A stretch of 64,000 bases of DNA, from positions 30,193 to 94,192 of the forward strand of contig JANBRJ010000066.1 in NCBI GenBank assembly GCA_027577595.1, read 5' to 3'. A model generated the notes under the pieces. That model was not told the origin of the DNA and ran no database searches. It saw only the letters and a list, made by a program, of their open reading frames with translations. How positions within the stretch are numbered: position 1 is the stretch's first letter; each line of letters opens with the position of its first letter. The position numbers and the translations under genes were made by a program. Source of the stretch: Coemansia sp. RSA 487 (taxonomy: Eukaryota > Kickxellomycota > Kickxellomycetes > Kickxellales > Kickxellaceae). Shown here piece after piece: positions 14,336 through 51,703 of this stretch.

Positions 14336-15004
14336 GGATCCAGCTTTAGTTTATCCTTTCATGTTTTTTTTAGCAGAAAGGGTGATCACCATATTTGGCC
14401 AATGCAAACTGCGCATGTGCTCCGTTACAAAGGATCTTTGCGTTTTTTCTTTCACAAAGAACAGGTGAACTGAAAAGGACTTTCAAGATTTCTCCATCAA
14501 CCACTTTTTTCCTTGGCCAGAAATGATGAACAGCAAAGCAGGTTTTTGCGTATGCTCTCGCAATTTTGAATCATTGCCATTATCACCCCATGCATAATGC
14601 GCCATGGGCATCATATGATTGAGCACTTTGATTTACACAAGGAGCTTCTTGTAGAGGCGTAAAGGACTTTACCTTATTTCATTGCCTTTTCTAAAAAATC
14701 GATAGTCGATCAATTGGCCAAAATATAGCTTGTGAAAGCAGCGGCCCACGCCGTGCAATCCATTTATTGCTGCTTTTGTGGATTGACCGATTCACGACAA
14801 TCATGCCTTTAAGATCCAAACCTTTCCTTTAGATCTGTAATTTACAAACGTCTTTTTATAAACCAAAACGTATGTAAAGCTCCCAATGTTTCTTTTCCAC
14901 AGTTGCAATTACAACGATCTGCAATACCCAGCAATTGAGTAGAAAATCTAATTTAAATGCGTGGAAATATGCACCAGTGCTTTTCCTTTTTAGTACAATT
15001 GCGA

Positions 15005-15140
15005 GCCAATGTTTTTTACTTTCAATATGCTTGCTTCTTTCACCAGTGGCATAACACCAAGATATGATAAACTTGTAACGTTTGTAGAAACAGCGAGTAT
15101 GATAGATTGTTTGTAGTATTATTATTGTTTTATAGCTATT
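15005..15140 (+). repeat. Dispersed repeat, copy A
   Basis: Copy A of a three-member family, with copy C at about 28.5 kb on the minus strand and copy B at about 45.2 kb on the plus strand. The 52-bp core is 15049-15100. It matches copy B at 47 of 52 positions, including a 24-bp exact stretch (15071-15094). In one frame all three copies read YD-(K/T)-LVTFVETA. In copy A this frame ends at a TAG shortly after the core. Similarity fades over about 45 bp upstream and 40 bp downstream. Confidence 0.8.
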
Positions 15141-28277: not shown

Positions 28278-28691
28278 TATTATAGCTTTTATGTCTTGTC
28301 CCCAGCTTTAAACTATAACTAAAAGGCGGTAATACATAAAACTAATTCATTTTGTTTGTGCCTCACAAACCGCATAATATTTTTTAATTCTGGTATTAAA
28401 GTACGAGACGTCTAAAAATAATGATTTACGGGATTTGCCCAGTGATCTCTATCGCTTTTCTCATTCTCTCTAGTTCTTTTATTTTATAAAACAGTAAAAG
28501 ACAACAGCGCATACCTGCTGTTTCTACAAATGTTACAAGTTTGTCATAGCTTGGTGTCGTGCCACAGGTAAAAGAAATAATGAATATATCAAGAATGAAA
28601 AAAACATTTATTCGCTCCTGCATAAAAGAGGAAAAACATATCTTGGCCACTAATACAAATAAATTAATACATATAGTTCATGCCTGCATCA
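28278..28691. other. Intergenic region containing dispersed repeat copy C
   Basis: A stretch of 414 bp between the DHHC stop and the RBM42-like start, both minus strand. It holds the promoter of the RBM42-like gene and copy C of the dispersed repeat. No separate intact gene was found. Confidence 0.6.
28440..28600 (-). repeat. Dispersed repeat, copy C, with open frame
   Basis: Core 28511-28562 on the minus strand. Similarity to copy B continues downstream of the core through a shared TTTTATAAAATAAAA block to about 28465. The frame shared by the copies is open in C from about 28650 to 28429 and reads TPSYDKLVTFVETAGMRCCL, then YKIKELERMRKAIEITGQIP and a stop. A 3-nt in-frame gap separates C from B. 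It has no ATG in a convincing position and is probably a gene fragment. Confidence 0.75.
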
Positions 28692-42827: not shown

Positions 42828-44786
42828 ATGCCCACTCCAAGTGAAATCGATCTGCATAAGGAATTTGGCAACACAAAGCTTGAGGCCGACGCTGTCGTTG
42901 AAGGCATCTCCATATGCCAAATCTTTGACTTAAGTGCAAGCGACCTTTTCATCAGATGGCAAACGTTTGTTATCAACAGACATGGCGGCGATGCCAGTGT
43001 CAAGCCAACGCGTGAGCGGCTACTAGAGGTGCGGTCAATGTTGCAGCAGGAGCTGGAGCGAAAGTCGTCTCAGCGGCGTGGTGGTGCTACTGGTTCGGCG
43101 ATGAAGCTGCCGAGGCACAAGGAAAGGGTTCATTACGACAAAAACTCTGTAGAAGGACTTTTGCAGGGCATGGTTTCTGGCAGTCAGCGCGAGTTTATGA
43201 AAACCCCCCAAAGCACAAAAAGGGTTGGACTGCTAAAGGGTGGCAACGTTTCGGCATCACACGGACGCACAATGTTTTCGCCCATGACTCCAAGCGCGTT
43301 TGCCGAGCCATCGCCCAGCGCAATCCGCTATTCAAAACGCACAAACATGGGCCACACGGAGGATACACTGCGCTCGGAGCTTCCACCACTCAACCTACCA
43401 GAGACACGAATCCCTATTTTTGTTTCTGAGCACGGCGCACGGGTAGTCGAGTCTGAGGAGATCAGTAGTGATGAAAGCGACAGCGAAAATTCCAGAGATG
43501 AAAACGGCAAAGGCGCTGGACCGCGGCGCGTAGAAAAACGCATGCGCTACATGTTTGAAAAGATGGCAGCGCGCACAGAAACGGTCAACAAGCGCATTGA
43601 ACGCATGGCTATCAGTGTCAAGACAGAGTACAACATCGAGGCACTGGCCAACCCCACTTATCCGCACCAGAACACAGTAACCGCGGTAGGTCGCATTATG
43701 AATATTGGTTCTGATGACAGCCAAACCGCTGCACCAATTTCGAGCGATACCTTATACCTGGAAACATCCCGCCGCCTTGGAAATGGCCGACGCATACCCT
43801 TGGATGTACGCTCTGCGCCGTCGTTTTCGCTGTTTCCCGGGCAAGTTGTTGCTGTTGAAGGAAAGAACCTCAAGGGCACAGAGTTCTCTGCGCTCAAATT
43901 CCGCCAGCTCCCACGCTTAGTCCATGCGCCTGTCGACGACCGTAAAGATTATGCTGGGGCATTCTCTGTTATGGTGGCATGTGGTCCATATACCTTGGCA
44001 GATAATTTTGAGTATGAGCCGCTAGTCGATCTGGTAGACAAGGCAATTGCTGAATCGCCCTGTGCTGTTTTCTTGCTTGGACCATTTGTGAGCGAATCCC
44101 ACCCGATGCTGAAGGACGGTCAGACGGATATGCTGCCTGAGGAAATATTCCACATGAAAATCAGCCCCCATCTGACGCGCCTCCGCAATGGGCTTCCATC
44201 GAGCGCATCAGTGTTTCTGGTTCCATCAACAGATGAGCTTTGCTGTTCCTATGTATCGTTTCCTCAGCCACCGCTAAGCCATAGTGTTTTGTTACAGCTT
44301 GGCGTTCCAGAAGGTGTGGTGTCGCTTAGCAATCCAGCACAGATATCGGTCAACGGCGTGAACTTTGCAATTTCCAATATCGACATCCTATTACACTTGG
44401 TGAAAGAGGAGGTCTCCAGATTGCCCGCCTTGAGTGACCGTTTGCCACGCCTAGCATGGCACCTGGTCGAGCAGCACCATTTCTATCCTCTCTCGCCGCC
44501 ACCAGCCGATTGCGCAGCCATACTTTCCTCGCAAGATGCCAAACTGAAGATGCAGGTGATGCCCGATATATTGATTACGCCTTCTCAGCTAAAGCAGTTT
44601 GCGCATATCCACGAAAACTCTATATTACTCAACCCTGGCTACTCCTCAAAGGGGCTATCAGGCGGCACATTTGCAAAAATAAATGTTCATTCGCCTAGTG
44701 ATGTTCGCTCGGTAAACACGATGCTTGGGGACTCGGAAAGAGTGTTTCCAGCAGACTGTACTAGTGTAGCCATTGTTCGTATTTAG
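42828..44786 (+). CDS. POL12: DNA polymerase alpha subunit B (primase complex, Pol12/POLA2)
   Basis: Regulatory subunit of the DNA polymerase alpha-primase complex, which lays down primers at origins and on the lagging strand. It has 652 residues from ATG 42828. A helical N-terminal domain (about 1-75) precedes a linker with RVGLLKGGN and Ser/Thr-Pro sites (about 125-170), likely CDK targets as in known homologues. An OB fold (about 275-365) follows, then the inactive calcineurin-like phosphodiesterase fold that marks B subunits: MVACGPYTLADN (about 382-393), LLGPFVSESHPML, FLVPSTDELC and LNPGYSS near the C-terminus. Single exon. Confidence 0.92.
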   Translation: MPTPSEIDLHKEFGNTKLEADAVVEGISICQIFDLSASDLFIRWQTFVINRHGGDASVKPTRERLLEVRSMLQQELERKSSQRRGGATGSAMKLPRHKERVHYDKNSVEGLLQGMVSGSQREFMKTPQSTKRVGLLKGGNVSASHGRTMFSPMTPSAFAEPSPSAIRYSKRTNMGHTEDTLRSELPPLNLPETRIPIFVSEHGARVVESEEISSDESDSENSRDENGKGAGPRRVEKRMRYMFEKMAARTETVNKRIERMAISVKTEYNIEALANPTYPHQNTVTAVGRIMNIGSDDSQTAAPISSDTLYLETSRRLGNGRRIPLDVRSAPSFSLFPGQVVAVEGKNLKGTEFSALKFRQLPRLVHAPVDDRKDYAGAFSVMVACGPYTLADNFEYEPLVDLVDKAIAESPCAVFLLGPFVSESHPMLKDGQTDMLPEEIFHMKISPHLTRLRNGLPSSASVFLVPSTDELCCSYVSFPQPPLSHSVLLQLGVPEGVVSLSNPAQISVNGVNFAISNIDILLHLVKEEVSRLPALSDRLPRLAWHLVEQHHFYPLSPPPADCAAILSSQDAKLKMQVMPDILITPSQLKQFAHIHENSILLNPGYSSKGLSGGTFAKINVHSPSDVRSVNTMLGDSERVFPADCTSVAIVRI

Positions 44787-45089: not shown

Positions 45090-45262
45090 GTTTTTTCACT
45101 TCTGAAAAGTGGTGGGCTAATATTTTTTTACTGGTGATATATCTATTGTTTCCTTTGCCCACGGCATGGCACCAATATATGATACACTTGTAACGTTTGT
45201 AGAAACAGCAAGTATATATTGTTGTCTTTTGTTTTATAAAATAAAAAGAACTAGAAAATGAA
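45090..45262 (+). repeat. Dispersed repeat, copy B
   Basis: Core 45164-45215, sharing 47 of 52 bases with copy A and about 44 of 52 with copy C. The common 20-mer gtaacgtttgtagaaacagc is identical in A and B. Downstream, B and C share TGTTGTCTTTT and TTTTATAAAATAAAA. The shared frame reads MAPIYDTLVTFVETAS, then CCLLFYKIK, and stops. It lies about 0.7 kb upstream of the Fanzor ATG. Confidence 0.8.
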
Positions 45263-45640
45263 CTAATATTTAAATGTTAAACAGAATAAACATTGGCTAA
45301 CCACTGTACTATCCGCTCATATGGAAGTCCACCAGTTTTTCTATCCATCAATATCATCCACCAGATGCTAACTCAGTAGCTGTGTTCTGTAGATGTTGCT
45401 TTCTTTATTGCGCCTTTTAACAAATACAGCTGTTATGTTTATGTTGTTGTGTTTGTGTAGACACTCCCAGTGTAACTTCCTCTTATTTGAAGTGCTGCGT
45501 AGATTATGTTCATTAGCTTACAAAATAAACAACGGCATACAAATATAAAATAATAAAAACAGTGGCTTTTATCACCATCAAAATATTATTAAGGATGCTT
45601 ATAATGATCAGTAGGCATAAATCGTATGCTTGCCAACAAT

Positions 45641-45699: not shown

Positions 45700-45970
45700 A
45701 TCGTCACCACACTGATAAAGGAAAAATACAATATGATAAAAAGAAAAAGAAATATATCTACAAAAAATAATTGAGAAACAAAAAACGGATGGGAGAGGAG
45801 CTCGCCTTCATATCGCAAGAATAAAAAAGCTATATTCCCAAGAAATGGCTACAAAAAGCAGAGAAAATCCTTTTCCTTGTATTGCAGCTACATTTTCTTA
45901 TTATTTATTAAACCTACAAAATCTCTTTAACTTCATCTTTTCCTTTTATTTCAACACACACACATCTCCG

Positions 45971-48190
45971 ATGGCACGCAGCGACGAGGTGTGTGTTGTC
46001 AAGGTTCCTTTGCAGGCTGTCAGCTGGCGCCGCAAGTACCAACCGCCTCTTCGAAAGCTTGTCAAAACAACAAACTACAACACCCGCCATTCTTATAACC
46101 TTTCTCGCTGGATATTTATAAACGAGCTTCATGAGGACATTGATTTCAAGCTCGACCGCTATGCCTGTGTTCCCTTTTTCAGGGAGGTCATCTTGAAAGT
46201 CAACGGTGAAAAAACCAGGTCTGTCGGCAGTGCGCGGAAAAACACAAAGGAACCTAAAGCAGAAGCAGAAAGTGACCAGCCAGACACAGCAGAGTTTCGA
46301 ACCCTCATAGCAAAACATTGGGATACATATGCACAGGCGTCACATATCAAGCAACAAAAGCAGGCATATATGACTCAAGTCGCTGGGTACGAAGCCCAAA
46401 AGATACATACTGCGTTCGTTGTCTCTGTTAAAAACAGCCTCGGAAACCGCCTACGCGGAGCTGTCAACATGCTCTGTAGGTCTAAAACCGAAGCACTTGC
46501 CAAGCGGATCGAACTCAAGGCTGCCGGTGCATCAGCTGATACTATCCGAGATACCCTAAGAGCTGAGGTGTGGGGGCCAGCAGACAAGGCCAAGAAATGT
46601 GTTGAGCGTGGCAAGATCATCGAAGCTGAGCTAGACGCACACATTTACGAACGGATCAAGGATCTTCAATCAGTACTCTACATCTACGAAAATGATACAC
46701 CTAGCGAAAAGGATCTCTACTATGACATCAAGTGCGACCCTGTCAAGCATATCAAAACCTTCTTTCTTCTGGCTCGGTTCTTCCAGAAAAATAAGCCCCG
46801 CAGCTTTCAGTGCACGCCACTTCGTACACAGTGGATCCCATGCCATGTCCACATTGATAAGGTTATCCTTTGTCAGTGGTTCCTTGGTGGCATCAAGAAG
46901 GGACAGAAGCTTACGAATGACCTTTGGGGTGAGGTCCTTGACATAAACTGCCAGGCAATCAAGAGTAAACAGGGTGGCAAGGTGTTTGAAGGCTCAGTTC
47001 AGACAGATGGTGTGTCAATCTCTATTTTCAAGAAGCGCAAGGCCAAGAAGAAAACCAACAAGAGCACAGACCAGACCAGCGAAACCAAGACATCTGACAT
47101 TGCCAGTACTGCCACGACCAAGACGCCAAAGACCAAGAAGGGCAAGAGCAAAGATAAATTCGAGTTTGAATACATTGAAGCGATCGACCAAGACAAGCTG
47201 TGTGCAATGGAGGGCAACTGTGTGCTGATTGACCCAGGCAGGAGGGACCTCCTGTTCTGCATGCATGAGTATGGCTCCATTGGGAATCCGTGGCTATTCC
47301 GGTTTACGCGCAATCACAAGGCCAAGCTGACTTGCTCTACCAAGTTCTGCAGGATCCTCGAAGCAGCCAAGAAGATGTATCTTGACAATGCTGTCATCGA
47401 AGCAGAGCAGCGTCTGGCTGAGGTTTCGTGCACCGCTGTTGATCCTGGTCAGTTCAAGAGGTTCATTGAGGTCCAGGCTGAGGTGTGGCCCCTTCTGAGC
47501 AAGTTCTACTCCTGCACACAGACAAACAGCACAACGAACAAGAGACCTCTTCATCGGCAGCTGCGTCTGGCAGCCTACCTTAACAGCCAAAGGGCAGACC
47601 ATGTCCTTGCCAACCTTATCCGTGAACAGTTTGGTCCTGATCCTGTCCTGGTTCTTGGGAATTGGTCTGCTGGCATGTGCAAGTACCACGAGCCCATCCA
47701 GGGTGTAGGTATGCGCAGGATGTTGCGAAAGCATGGATTCAAAGTGTACCTGTTGGACGAATTCCGTACCTCGACTTTCTGCCCTGGTTGTTGCGAAGAC
47801 AGGCTTGTGCATCCTGAAGAGCTGGTTCCAAACCCAAGACCCTACCCGAAAGAGAATAGGCGTGAGTATGTTACTAGCCATGGACTCCTAATGTGTCAAA
47901 ACAAAAAATGTGTGGAGTACGTGGCAGATAACATGAAGCCTGCTAACCACCTCGGGAAAGAGCCTGCTGCTCGGTTTTGGAACAGGGATCTTGCTGCTGT
48001 GTTGAATTTTAGGCATATTCTCCATAGTCTGCGCCAAATACACAAGAGGCCTGAGCGCTTTAGGCGTGGCACCACTCTTCCGCTGGCAAAGAAGACCAAG
48101 AAACCTGCGAGAGATGCCAAGAGGTCTGCCAGTGGCTCTGCGCAGCCCAGTAAGAAGCCCCGTTCAGCGACCTCGCAGCAGCAGTCTTAA
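45971..48190 (+). CDS. Fanzor (eukaryotic TnpB-like, RNA-guided DNA endonuclease)
   Basis: Predicted RNA-guided nuclease of the OMEGA class, related to TnpB and Cas12. It has 739 residues from ATG 45971, and an in-frame ATG at 45845 would add 42 unlikely residues. Helical N-terminal and RNA/DNA-binding regions (about 1-350) precede a Lys-rich insert (about 354-395) that could serve as a nuclear signal. The RuvC nuclease follows. RuvC-I is D421 in LIDPGRRD. The RuvC-II segment VLVLGNWSAG (559-568) lacks the usual Glu, but E597 in LLDEFRTSTFC supplies the displaced glutamate typical of Fanzors. The zinc ribbon is C604/C607 with C642/C647. RuvC-III is D673 in NRDLAAVLNF. All catalytic residues are present and the frame is intact, so it may be active. 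The tail is basic and NLS-like. No transposase lies beside it, and a structured region directly follows the stop. Confidence 0.9.
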   Translation: MARSDEVCVVKVPLQAVSWRRKYQPPLRKLVKTTNYNTRHSYNLSRWIFINELHEDIDFKLDRYACVPFFREVILKVNGEKTRSVGSARKNTKEPKAEAESDQPDTAEFRTLIAKHWDTYAQASHIKQQKQAYMTQVAGYEAQKIHTAFVVSVKNSLGNRLRGAVNMLCRSKTEALAKRIELKAAGASADTIRDTLRAEVWGPADKAKKCVERGKIIEAELDAHIYERIKDLQSVLYIYENDTPSEKDLYYDIKCDPVKHIKTFFLLARFFQKNKPRSFQCTPLRTQWIPCHVHIDKVILCQWFLGGIKKGQKLTNDLWGEVLDINCQAIKSKQGGKVFEGSVQTDGVSISIFKKRKAKKKTNKSTDQTSETKTSDIASTATTKTPKTKKGKSKDKFEFEYIEAIDQDKLCAMEGNCVLIDPGRRDLLFCMHEYGSIGNPWLFRFTRNHKAKLTCSTKFCRILEAAKKMYLDNAVIEAEQRLAEVSCTAVDPGQFKRFIEVQAEVWPLLSKFYSCTQTNSTTNKRPLHRQLRLAAYLNSQRADHVLANLIREQFGPDPVLVLGNWSAGMCKYHEPIQGVGMRRMLRKHGFKVYLLDEFRTSTFCPGCCEDRLVHPEELVPNPRPYPKENRREYVTSHGLLMCQNKKCVEYVADNMKPANHLGKEPAARFWNRDLAAVLNFRHILHSLRQIHKRPERFRRGTTLPLAKKTKKPARDAKRSASGSAQPSKKPRSATSQQQS

Positions 48191-48210
48191 CATCAACCAT
48201 ATTTTTCCCT

Positions 48211-48318
48211 GGGTGCTATAGCACTCCAACTACCCAGAACCGTTCTGGGCGGAAATTAATGCCAGATACAAGGCTTTGTTTGCCACACGTTAGTGGTAAT
48301 CGGAGGTCATTGGCATTA
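48211..48318 (+). ncRNA. Candidate Fanzor guide RNA (fRNA/omegaRNA) scaffold
   Basis: Begins 20 nt after the Fanzor stop. Hairpin 1: GGGTGC (48211-48216) with GCACTC (48221-48226), TATA loop. Hairpin 2: CCCAGAA (48233-48239) with TTCTGGG (48243-48249), part of an 8-bp inverted repeat with a single central base. Stem 3: TAATGCCA (48257-48264) with TGGCATTA (48311-48318), 8 perfect pairs enclosing an inner hairpin CCAC (48283-48286)/GTGG (48293-48296). In known Fanzor loci the guide RNA scaffold lies at this position, overlapping or following the 3' end of the gene, and the guide comes from sequence just beyond it. If so, the guide would start near 48319. Expression is not shown by sequence. 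Confidence 0.5.
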
Positions 48319-48513
48319 CGTCATTCCCCTATTCTCGATTCAACGTACAAACTACCGTGTATATTCTTTTCAACGCCAAAATTAATCAATTGAGCTACAC
48401 AGCCACCACACTCATTTTTGTTTAATTTTTCAAGGACACTGAGTAAGCAAGCGTATGTGTCTATCATCTTGTCGGGAATAATGAGCCTGGTGCCGGCCAG
48501 AAAGTATATGCGC

Positions 48514-50449: not shown

Positions 50450-51703
50450 CTAAGAGAACTTCCAGCGGTTGTCGCAGACCAAACACGTAACAAATGTCGT
50501 CATAGGCTCGTCAGCGCTACGCGTTTGCATCTGGTAGTAGGAGCATCTGCGCTGTCTGCAACGTGAGCATTTGAATTGATCTGTCTCTGCTTCAACACGC
50601 GTTGCACCTTTGGCCTTAAATAGATTCTCCTCTTTTATGCGCTCAATAGTTTCTCTCAGCTCCTTTGAGGCCATCTCTTCGCTTGTCATCGAGCAGAATC
50701 GATCGACCGAGATATTCCCCTCAACAATATTTTTGCGCAGGTCCGGGTTCTTTTTGTCTTTCAAGTTAAGGCATAATGAACGAATTCTTGCCCTGAATGC
50801 GGTGGATGTTGATCCTGCTTTGTTAAATTCAACCAGCTCAATTCCCGCTGCACGCTCGGCCAGATCTCGAGAATCAGCACTACTGTCAAGTGCCATCGAA
50901 TTGTACAATAATTCAATGCACTTATCGCGTACATTGTCGCCAGTTTGCGGAAGACTGGCCTTATCGGATGCCGCCGTGCGCAGTGCCGGGCTGCCTAAAT
51001 TTCTAGTGCCTTCCGAATTTGCTGACGACCCATTTGTGCCTTTGCTGCTGTTTGGTTCAATCGGTGCATGTTTTGTTGTGCTGGAGTCTACACCCACTGC
51101 TGGAGATTCAGGGCCAGCACGGCTTGTTGTTGCGGATGAGCCATTTGAGGCTGCTTCGCTGTTTGTCAGAGTTGCTCCAACATGCTGTCCACTAGCATTT
51201 TCACTTTCGCCCTTTTGTTGCTGATCGCCTTTAGCGCCCTGTCCCGACACTTTCTGTGGCGTCTGTGAACGTGAGTCAGTCTTTGTGCCCGAACCAGAAG
51301 CACCCGATGTGCGTGAATTGGCAGCCACCACGTCCTTCTTCCATTTGTGCACGACCTTTTTTGCCATAACGGCGATGTTTGCATCCTCATAGTTGCGCAG
51401 CCGTCCAACAACCTGCCCAGCGCCTGTTGCTCTCAAAAGCTTTTCGTCGACTCGGACTAAATAGAGTTTTCCTAAAAGTTCCTTGAGATCCTAAAAGACA
51501 AAACGATAAAGTACACAGCTTTTCCATTTTGCACACACTGAGTGAATAATATTCGTATCAACATTTTTTGGGTATCTGCTGAGCTCAGGTAATAAAAAAC
51601 GACCATAGTAAATGCTTACCGTTTTGTTTTCAGCTTCTTGTGCAGAGCTGAGAGCTTTGCACAGCGCCTTTATATCATTGTGTTTGTTTGCTGTTTCCGA
51701 CAT
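50450..51703 (-). CDS. DST1: Transcription elongation factor TFIIS
   Basis: Rescues backtracked RNA polymerase II by stimulating cleavage of the nascent RNA. Exon 1 is 51703-51620 (28 codons), intron 51491-51619 (129 nt, GT-AG), exon 2 51490-50450. The product is 374 residues. Domain I (LW/TFIIS N) spans about 1-85, a Ser/Gly/Thr-rich linker 90-190, and domain II (central, polymerase-binding) about 195-300 (begins RDKCIELLYNSM, contains KDKKNPDLRKNI). The C-terminal zinc ribbon has CSRCRQRRC and CLVCDNRW and the essential acidic pair in RSADEPMT. Size and order match fungal Dst1 (309 aa in yeast), with a longer linker. Confidence 0.95.

Follow-up and report, generated by a model that had tools for sequence, protein, structure and literature searches.

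Identity of the gene

The DNA analysed here, a stretch of 64,000 nucleotides (the window), carries a long open frame that a sequence-only reading had taken for an intact Fanzor nuclease gene in a fungal chromosome. Is the gene what it appears to be, and what might such a gene do at this place? Fanzor1 proteins are the eukaryotic relatives of the RNA-guided enzymes behind CRISPR.

Translation of 45971-48190, checked residue by residue, gave 739 residues followed by a terminal TAA, with zero internal stops, confirming a complete frame without stop or frameshift. RuvC-I D421, the displaced glutamate E597 and RuvC-III D673 were each found where the sequence-only reading had placed them, as was a zinc ribbon made of two pairs, C604/C607 and C642/C647. 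The gene and its motifs are as follows.

45971..48190, + strand: Fanzor1 gene, single exon, 739 codons and TAA (translation, sequence matches, copy comparison)
47231..47239, + strand: RuvC-I, D421-P-G, the DPG being the Fanzor form of the motif (alignment, residue check; PMC10711439)
47759..47761, + strand: E597, interpreted as the RuvC glutamate at its alternative position (alignment, residue check; PMC10711439)
47780..47911, + strand: C4 zinc ribbon, C604/C607 ... C642/C647 (alignment, residue check)
47987..47989, + strand: RuvC-III D673 (alignment, residue check)

From residue 421 to residue 673, the order and spacing of the motifs agree with the pattern D-X(125,275)-[TS][TS]XX-C4 finger-X(5,50)-RD, given for Fanzor and TnpB proteins in PMC3627910, and the earlier statement that they stand in Fanzor order is thereby borne out. 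The DPG motif and the glutamate at an alternative position (Ealt) are described as marks of Fanzors (PMC10711439), and both are present in the window protein (D421-P-G423 and E597). A longer frame of 781 codons runs from an in-frame ATG at 45845. This start was dropped, its upstream in-frame ATG being present in 1/12 copies, the window copy alone; 45971 is the better start because an ATG is found there in 12/12 copies read at that position.

When the window protein was searched against PDB chains with phmmer, 2/2 matches at E values up to 1 were Fanzor1 proteins: PpFz1 of Parasitella parasitica (PDB 9cf0-9cf3), matched over most of its length at E 8.4e-97, and SpuFz1 at 5.7e-40. An E value of 8.4e-97 to a solved Fanzor1 means that the likeness of the frame to Fanzors is not a product of chance. 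A profile built from 11 Fanzor proteins of this genome gave 3/3 Fanzor1 matches among PDB sequences at E values up to 10, adding GtFz1 (6.4e-9). The best matches were Fanzor1 proteins with solved structures and none lay outside the TnpB/Fanzor family, in line with the family first proposed; the assignment to Fanzor1 is by matches among PDB sequences. Searches of Pfam and NCBIfam returned 0 families for the window protein, and Cas12f1-like_TNB matched 5/11 of the aligned Fanzor copies of the genome at E values up to 1 (best 3.3e-5). When viral contigs were scanned with a profile for relatives, 30 pattern matches came up and none was confirmed.

The catalytic and zinc residues of the window protein align with those of PpFz1 and SpuFz1, E597 being aligned with the glutamate of DEFRTS in the former and of DEYKTS in the latter. 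The RuvC fold rests on this sequence homology, since the AlphaFold model, made from an input alignment of 11 sequences of this genome, was of low confidence and reached a mean pLDDT of only 42.6. On a model of this quality, the second outcome that would have spoken against the first reading, a predicted fold lacking a RuvC nuclease, did not arise.

The window protein has the DPG, EFRTS, C4 ribbon and NRD motifs in common with PpFz1 and differs from it in skipping, between query residues 523 and 528, about 105 residues of PpFz1 (chain residues 992-1095). PpFz1 carries FRI, a cyclophilin-binding domain of about 100 residues inserted in RuvC (PMC11423790). Judged by its size, the stretch missing from the window protein is probably this FRI insertion, and in the alignment to PpFz1 an FRI-type RuvC insertion of ~100 residues is absent from the window protein. 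On these alignments, the window gene encodes a Fanzor1 of the PpFz1 branch.

The right end of the element and a candidate omega-RNA

DNA similarity between copies of the element stops at one point, which in the window is 48315, 125 nt past the stop codon. A query of the genome with 167 bases of the right end found 21 copies (23 rows, of which 2 were short reverse matches). The consensus of the 21 right ends finishes with ...GGAGGTCATTGGCA, after which the copies diverge; the last bases are degraded in L041, L047 and L049. The flanks beyond this fixed end are variable and match each other only within five copies followed by a repeat, X, described below, 6/21 of the right flanks compared being only 218-260 nt long.

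48191..48315, + strand: the element's right end (125 nt), a likely scaffold of the omega-RNA, with ...GGAGGTCATTGGCA as its last bases (similarity stop in 21 copies, fold, pair counts)
48316..48335, + strand: flank at the guide position, its first ~15 nt a putative guide (differs from the flanks of other copies; single exact genome match)

The segment 48187-48316 has a stable predicted fold (z -2.96; 1/200 shuffles as good), in which 48310-48315 pair with 48260-48265 and close the final stem beside the guide position. Each of the six pairs of this closing stem is a standard pair in 17-20/21 copies. Across the 21 copies, 90.3% of cells were paired as compared with 28.5-49.3% when the structure was slid, a comparison that is favoured by the structure having come from the window's own fold. 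Two-sided changes were seen at 5 pairs, a number reached in 88/500 shuffles, so covariation among the 21 copies does not rise above that of shuffles. The predicted scaffold structure is therefore plausible, though covariation does not prove it. A covariance model run over 19 sequence sources matched the window together with L046 and L047, both of which were in its training set, and gave 2 further weak matches in the window (E 0.14 and 0.28) and no match in the other 16 of the 19 sources searched.

The boundary at 48315 is an observation; from the predicted fold and the pair counts, 48191-48315 is likely to be an omega-RNA scaffold. At 125 nt, this predicted scaffold after the stop is longer than the 75-nt RNA of PpFz1 (PMC11423790). 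The unique flank that begins at 48316 would then likely be the guide. Its first 18 nt have one exact match in the genome, their own place, and at 3 mismatches there were 7 other places versus 14 in a control, giving no sign of secondary targets in the genome. The 285-nt right flank matches itself alone in the genome; because it has no second copy, no empty site can be read at the window locus.

The left end and the predicted TAM

The left boundary motif is CAGTGGTGAGCCAAT, which could be placed in 10/21 of the copies that have a right end. Where more than one motif match was present (L032 and L034), the one at the edge of copy similarity was used; the unused ones do not follow ATA. The three bases before the left end are ATA in 7/10 placed copies (background 0.016 in the same loci), and the two bases before it are TA in 8/10 (background 0.048, same loci). 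The placed copies with other bases are L050 (TCA), L053 (CTA) and the window copy itself, whose left junction reads GAA followed by AAGTGG. Two copies that carry no protein, L052 (275-1181) and L053 (285-1133), align at 72% identity from the TA and CAG junction to one base past GGCA, an alignment that supports both boundaries of the element.

45107..45121, + strand: left end, a decayed form of CAGTGGTGAGCCAAT, with GAA before it instead of ATA (motif search, copy comparison)
45107..45308, + strand: MITE-like and Tc1/mariner-like stretch, whose inverted ends are the left-end motif and, at 45292-45306, the inverse of this motif (motif search)
45108..45470, + strand: dispersed repeat, left part of the window element (genome search)

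The TAM measured for PpFz1 is 5'-ATN (PMC11423790). Read from the better preserved left ends, the TAM of the window family is most likely 5'-ATA, in agreement with that of PpFz1. The ATA before the left ends may instead reflect target choice by a transposase, since Tc1/mariner elements use TA.

A genome search with the repeat at 45108-45470 gave, apart from one row at chance level, 40 scored matches, and 6/40 of these adjoin a copy of the window's Fanzor family. Elsewhere in the window, at 14994-15101 and 28460-28608, there are two more incomplete copies of the MITE-like left-end repeat.

Ghosts and mobility

Right ends were found at 6 places without a protein match, that at C114 being cut by a contig end. 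Ghosts, in which most of the gene is missing in the DNA read, are present at C140, C20, C71, C4 and C6. Most of the gene is missing from both L046 (C37) and L050 (C140), which lie at different genomic places and have an identical deletion junction, from element position 528 to about 2867. This suggests that the deleted form common to the two has itself moved.

In one member of the window family, L035, the place that corresponds to the MITE-like unit holds a broken Tc1-type transposase, directly upstream of the Fanzor gene (L035 2700-3300, reading SPDLNPIENLWG), with an inverted end motif 9 bases past the transposase stop; the DDE_3 match of this transposase does not reach the family cut-off. 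The combination that strictly defines a Tc1/mariner element, inverted repeats at both ends and a TA duplication, was not found in the window family, because the right end, ...CATTGGCA, has no fixed TA and no full inverted repeat. The two ends share GCCAATG/CATTGGC only.

A second Fanzor1 family, of ~40% identity, is present in the genome. Its own query matched at least 72 stretches (63/260 candidates scored), a list that overlaps that of the window query, and by number of places the second family appears from these matches to be larger than the window's. Matches to the DDE_3 transposase were found at 51 places, 40 of them over the cut-off, and 15 of the 51 lie upstream of the second family, on the same strand and within 3.1 kb, positions having been compared by hand (C19, C7, C5, C23, C78, C1, C71, C82, C41, C10, C22, C140, C81, C151 and C28). 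Inverted repeats of about 100-130 bp are present at the ends in 3/14 loci of this family that were examined. Long open frames of more divergent Fanzor1-like genes were also seen, at C18:46475-48439 (875 codons), C29:3668-5659 (902) and C57:5609-7519 (748), and are possibly further Fanzor1 families.

Carriage of Fanzor1 in Tc1/mariner elements has been described for PGv-1, PUl-1 and PUl-4 (PMC3627910). The likeness to these carriers is found in the second family, with its upstream DDE_3 and some inverted ends, and in the transposase remnant of L035, whereas the window family differs in having a right end without full inverted repeat or TA duplication. SpuFz1/Spu-1 of Spizellomyces punctatus (PDB 8gkh) is likewise a multi-copy fungal Fanzor1. 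Spu-1 resembles the window family in an RNA scaffold (a candidate here) that extends from the stop to the right end, in conserved bases outside the left end and in ghosts that carry no protein (PMC10432273). In contrast, both ends of Spu-1 carry inverted repeats of 30 nt, whereas the ends of the window family are asymmetric, and the TAM of SpuFz1 is CATA rather than the predicted ATA (PMC10432273).

Constraint on the family and the state of the window copy

With 61/206 candidates scored, the window protein was found to match at least 72 stretches of the genome. Its own family has at least 8 copies, the window copy included, at 82% or more identity over most of the length. Among the scored matches, 6 copies including the window copy are free of internal stops across 732 or more of the 739 positions (86-100% identity), and stops are present in 3/9 aligned copies (C41, C65 and the divergent C57). 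In pairwise comparison of the 8 family copies (28 pairs), the dN/dS ratio is 0.166-0.330, demonstrating that the protein was kept under constraint while the family spread. The changes private to the window copy, 8 amino-acid versus 4 silent, are not distinguishable from neutral, the numbers being small, and give no sign of constraint since insertion.

The explanation that we favour, with a probability of roughly 0.8, is that the window gene is a PpFz1-branch Fanzor1 without the probable FRI stretch, carried by a mobile element that has a scaffold at its right end, a guide in its flank and ATA as its TAM, and that the nuclease aids persistence of the element by cutting the unoccupied site. The right end of the element would give rise to the omega-RNA scaffold and the adjoining host DNA to the guide. 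At the insertion site, an allele without the element, which has the TAM and the guide sequence, would be cut by the RNP, and the element would be regained when the break is repaired from the occupied copy. By analogy with TnpB and SpuFz1, scaffold copies without protein could be served in trans; the TnpB model and the idea of ghosts in Spu-1 have both been published (PMC10432273). Movement would probably depend on a Tc1/mariner-like transposase encoded elsewhere. Since its left end is decayed, the window copy may do no more than supply nuclease and guide, if it is expressed.

The role of Fanzors for elements or hosts is stated to be unknown in the Discussion of PMC10432273. Available in this genome are several intact copies, 21 or more scaffold ends whose flanks can be read, a TAM prediction based on the insertion sites, and a target, X, that is apparently common to several copies. 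The insertion sites of the window family are an unusually readable set, with which the idea that Fanzors hold elements in place by cutting unoccupied sites can be tested directly. For the role of FRI, a natural comparison is also provided by a PpFz1-like protein in which the probable FRI insertion is missing.

A reading with a smaller yet appreciable chance of being right is that the gene is an intact-looking but dead transposon relic, in a family that is active now or was formerly, and that the window copy has drifted and is silent or inactive. The private changes (8 amino-acid to 4 silent), the decayed left end of the window copy and the stops in 3/9 aligned copies (C41, C65 and divergent C57) are as expected of a relic, but its 739 codons have remained without stop or frameshift, the catalytic and zinc residues are kept and the right end is well conserved. 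The relic reading shares with the favoured explanation the identity of the gene and the mechanism of the family; the two part only over the window copy. The suggestion in the sequence-only reading that the gene may be a working nuclease is reasonable as far as the kept catalytic and zinc residues and the conserved omega-RNA-like right end go, and the private changes of the window copy, which show no constraint, weigh against it.

Domestication of the Fanzor by its host, for a function other than persistence of the element, is highly improbable: the family-level dN/dS of 0.166-0.330 would be compatible with it, but the many dispersed copies have transposon ends and are accompanied by ghosts, and the window copy alone is without detected constraint.

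The gene has DNA polymerase alpha subunit B (POLA2, 42828-44786) and TFIIS (50450-51436, minus strand) as neighbours, and the same assembly (17.8 Mb in 184 contigs searched) contains one complete chitin synthase 1 domain (E 1.2e-74). Neighbours and domain support, and do not prove, a fungal host for the Fanzor1 gene. Scans of the window with Rfam (gathering threshold) and for tRNAs gave no matches. The Helitron protein PF14214 gave no match either; a control likewise matched nothing, so absence cannot be read from this search. A prokaryotic TnpB-like protein or contamination, in place of a eukaryotic Fanzor, would account for a motif order common to TnpB, but is already contradicted by the eukaryotic neighbour genes on both sides, the 3/3 Fanzor1 profile matches among PDB sequences and the presence of DPG and the alternative Glu, and we give it practically no weight.

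Repeat X at the guide position

Sequence related to a repeat, X, is found directly after 5/21 right ends (C113, C65, C77, C140 and C37), and X is present at 7 genome places in all (9 rows).

L034 6141-6380; L038 6314-6554; L043 6120-6380; L046 4647-4750; L050 1129-1280: repeat X after right ends
C57:66362-66599; C69:642-887: repeat X without a Fanzor right end beside it

In 4/5 of the X right ends, the first 15 nt, which are the guide position, are nearly identical (GGYAARTTTYTCATG); the first part of X is missing at C37 (L046). At C57, X is found on the opposite strand, immediately upstream of a divergent Fanzor. The X place on C69 has no right end in the 21-copy right-end search.

Fanzor-guided homing, that is repeated insertion into X as one target, is an unlikely origin of this arrangement. 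TATA occurs just before X at both C57 (...TGTATA) and C69 (...TTATA), which fits what is expected of unoccupied sites with TAM and target. A search of the left side of C57 against the flanks of the five copies gave no match extending X leftward, and the left side of C69 gave matches only within X itself. In a tree of 19/21 right ends (L053 and L054 left out), the five X copies are not grouped and 5 changes are needed; a single origin of X was found in 0% of 200 bootstrap trees, the tree being weak, with 1/16 inner branches well supported. X starts exactly at the junction even where the right end is absent, and this suggests that X has a boundary of its own there; a plain target site could do without one.

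X may instead be a single inherited extension of the element that is carried along, or an intron-like repeat that inserts at the junction. Read by eye, X is intron-like in beginning with GTAAGT or GCAAGT and in having TACTAAC or a close form in the five copies after right ends, and it reaches a pyrimidine tract and AG in L043 and L050. The search for X as a known RNA gave one chance-level match only. A bolder variant, in which splicing of X at the scaffold/guide junction would swap the guide, is very doubtful. As to the left ends of the X copies, that of L038 was not placed, TCA is found before that of L050, and ATA is found before those of L034, L043 and L046.
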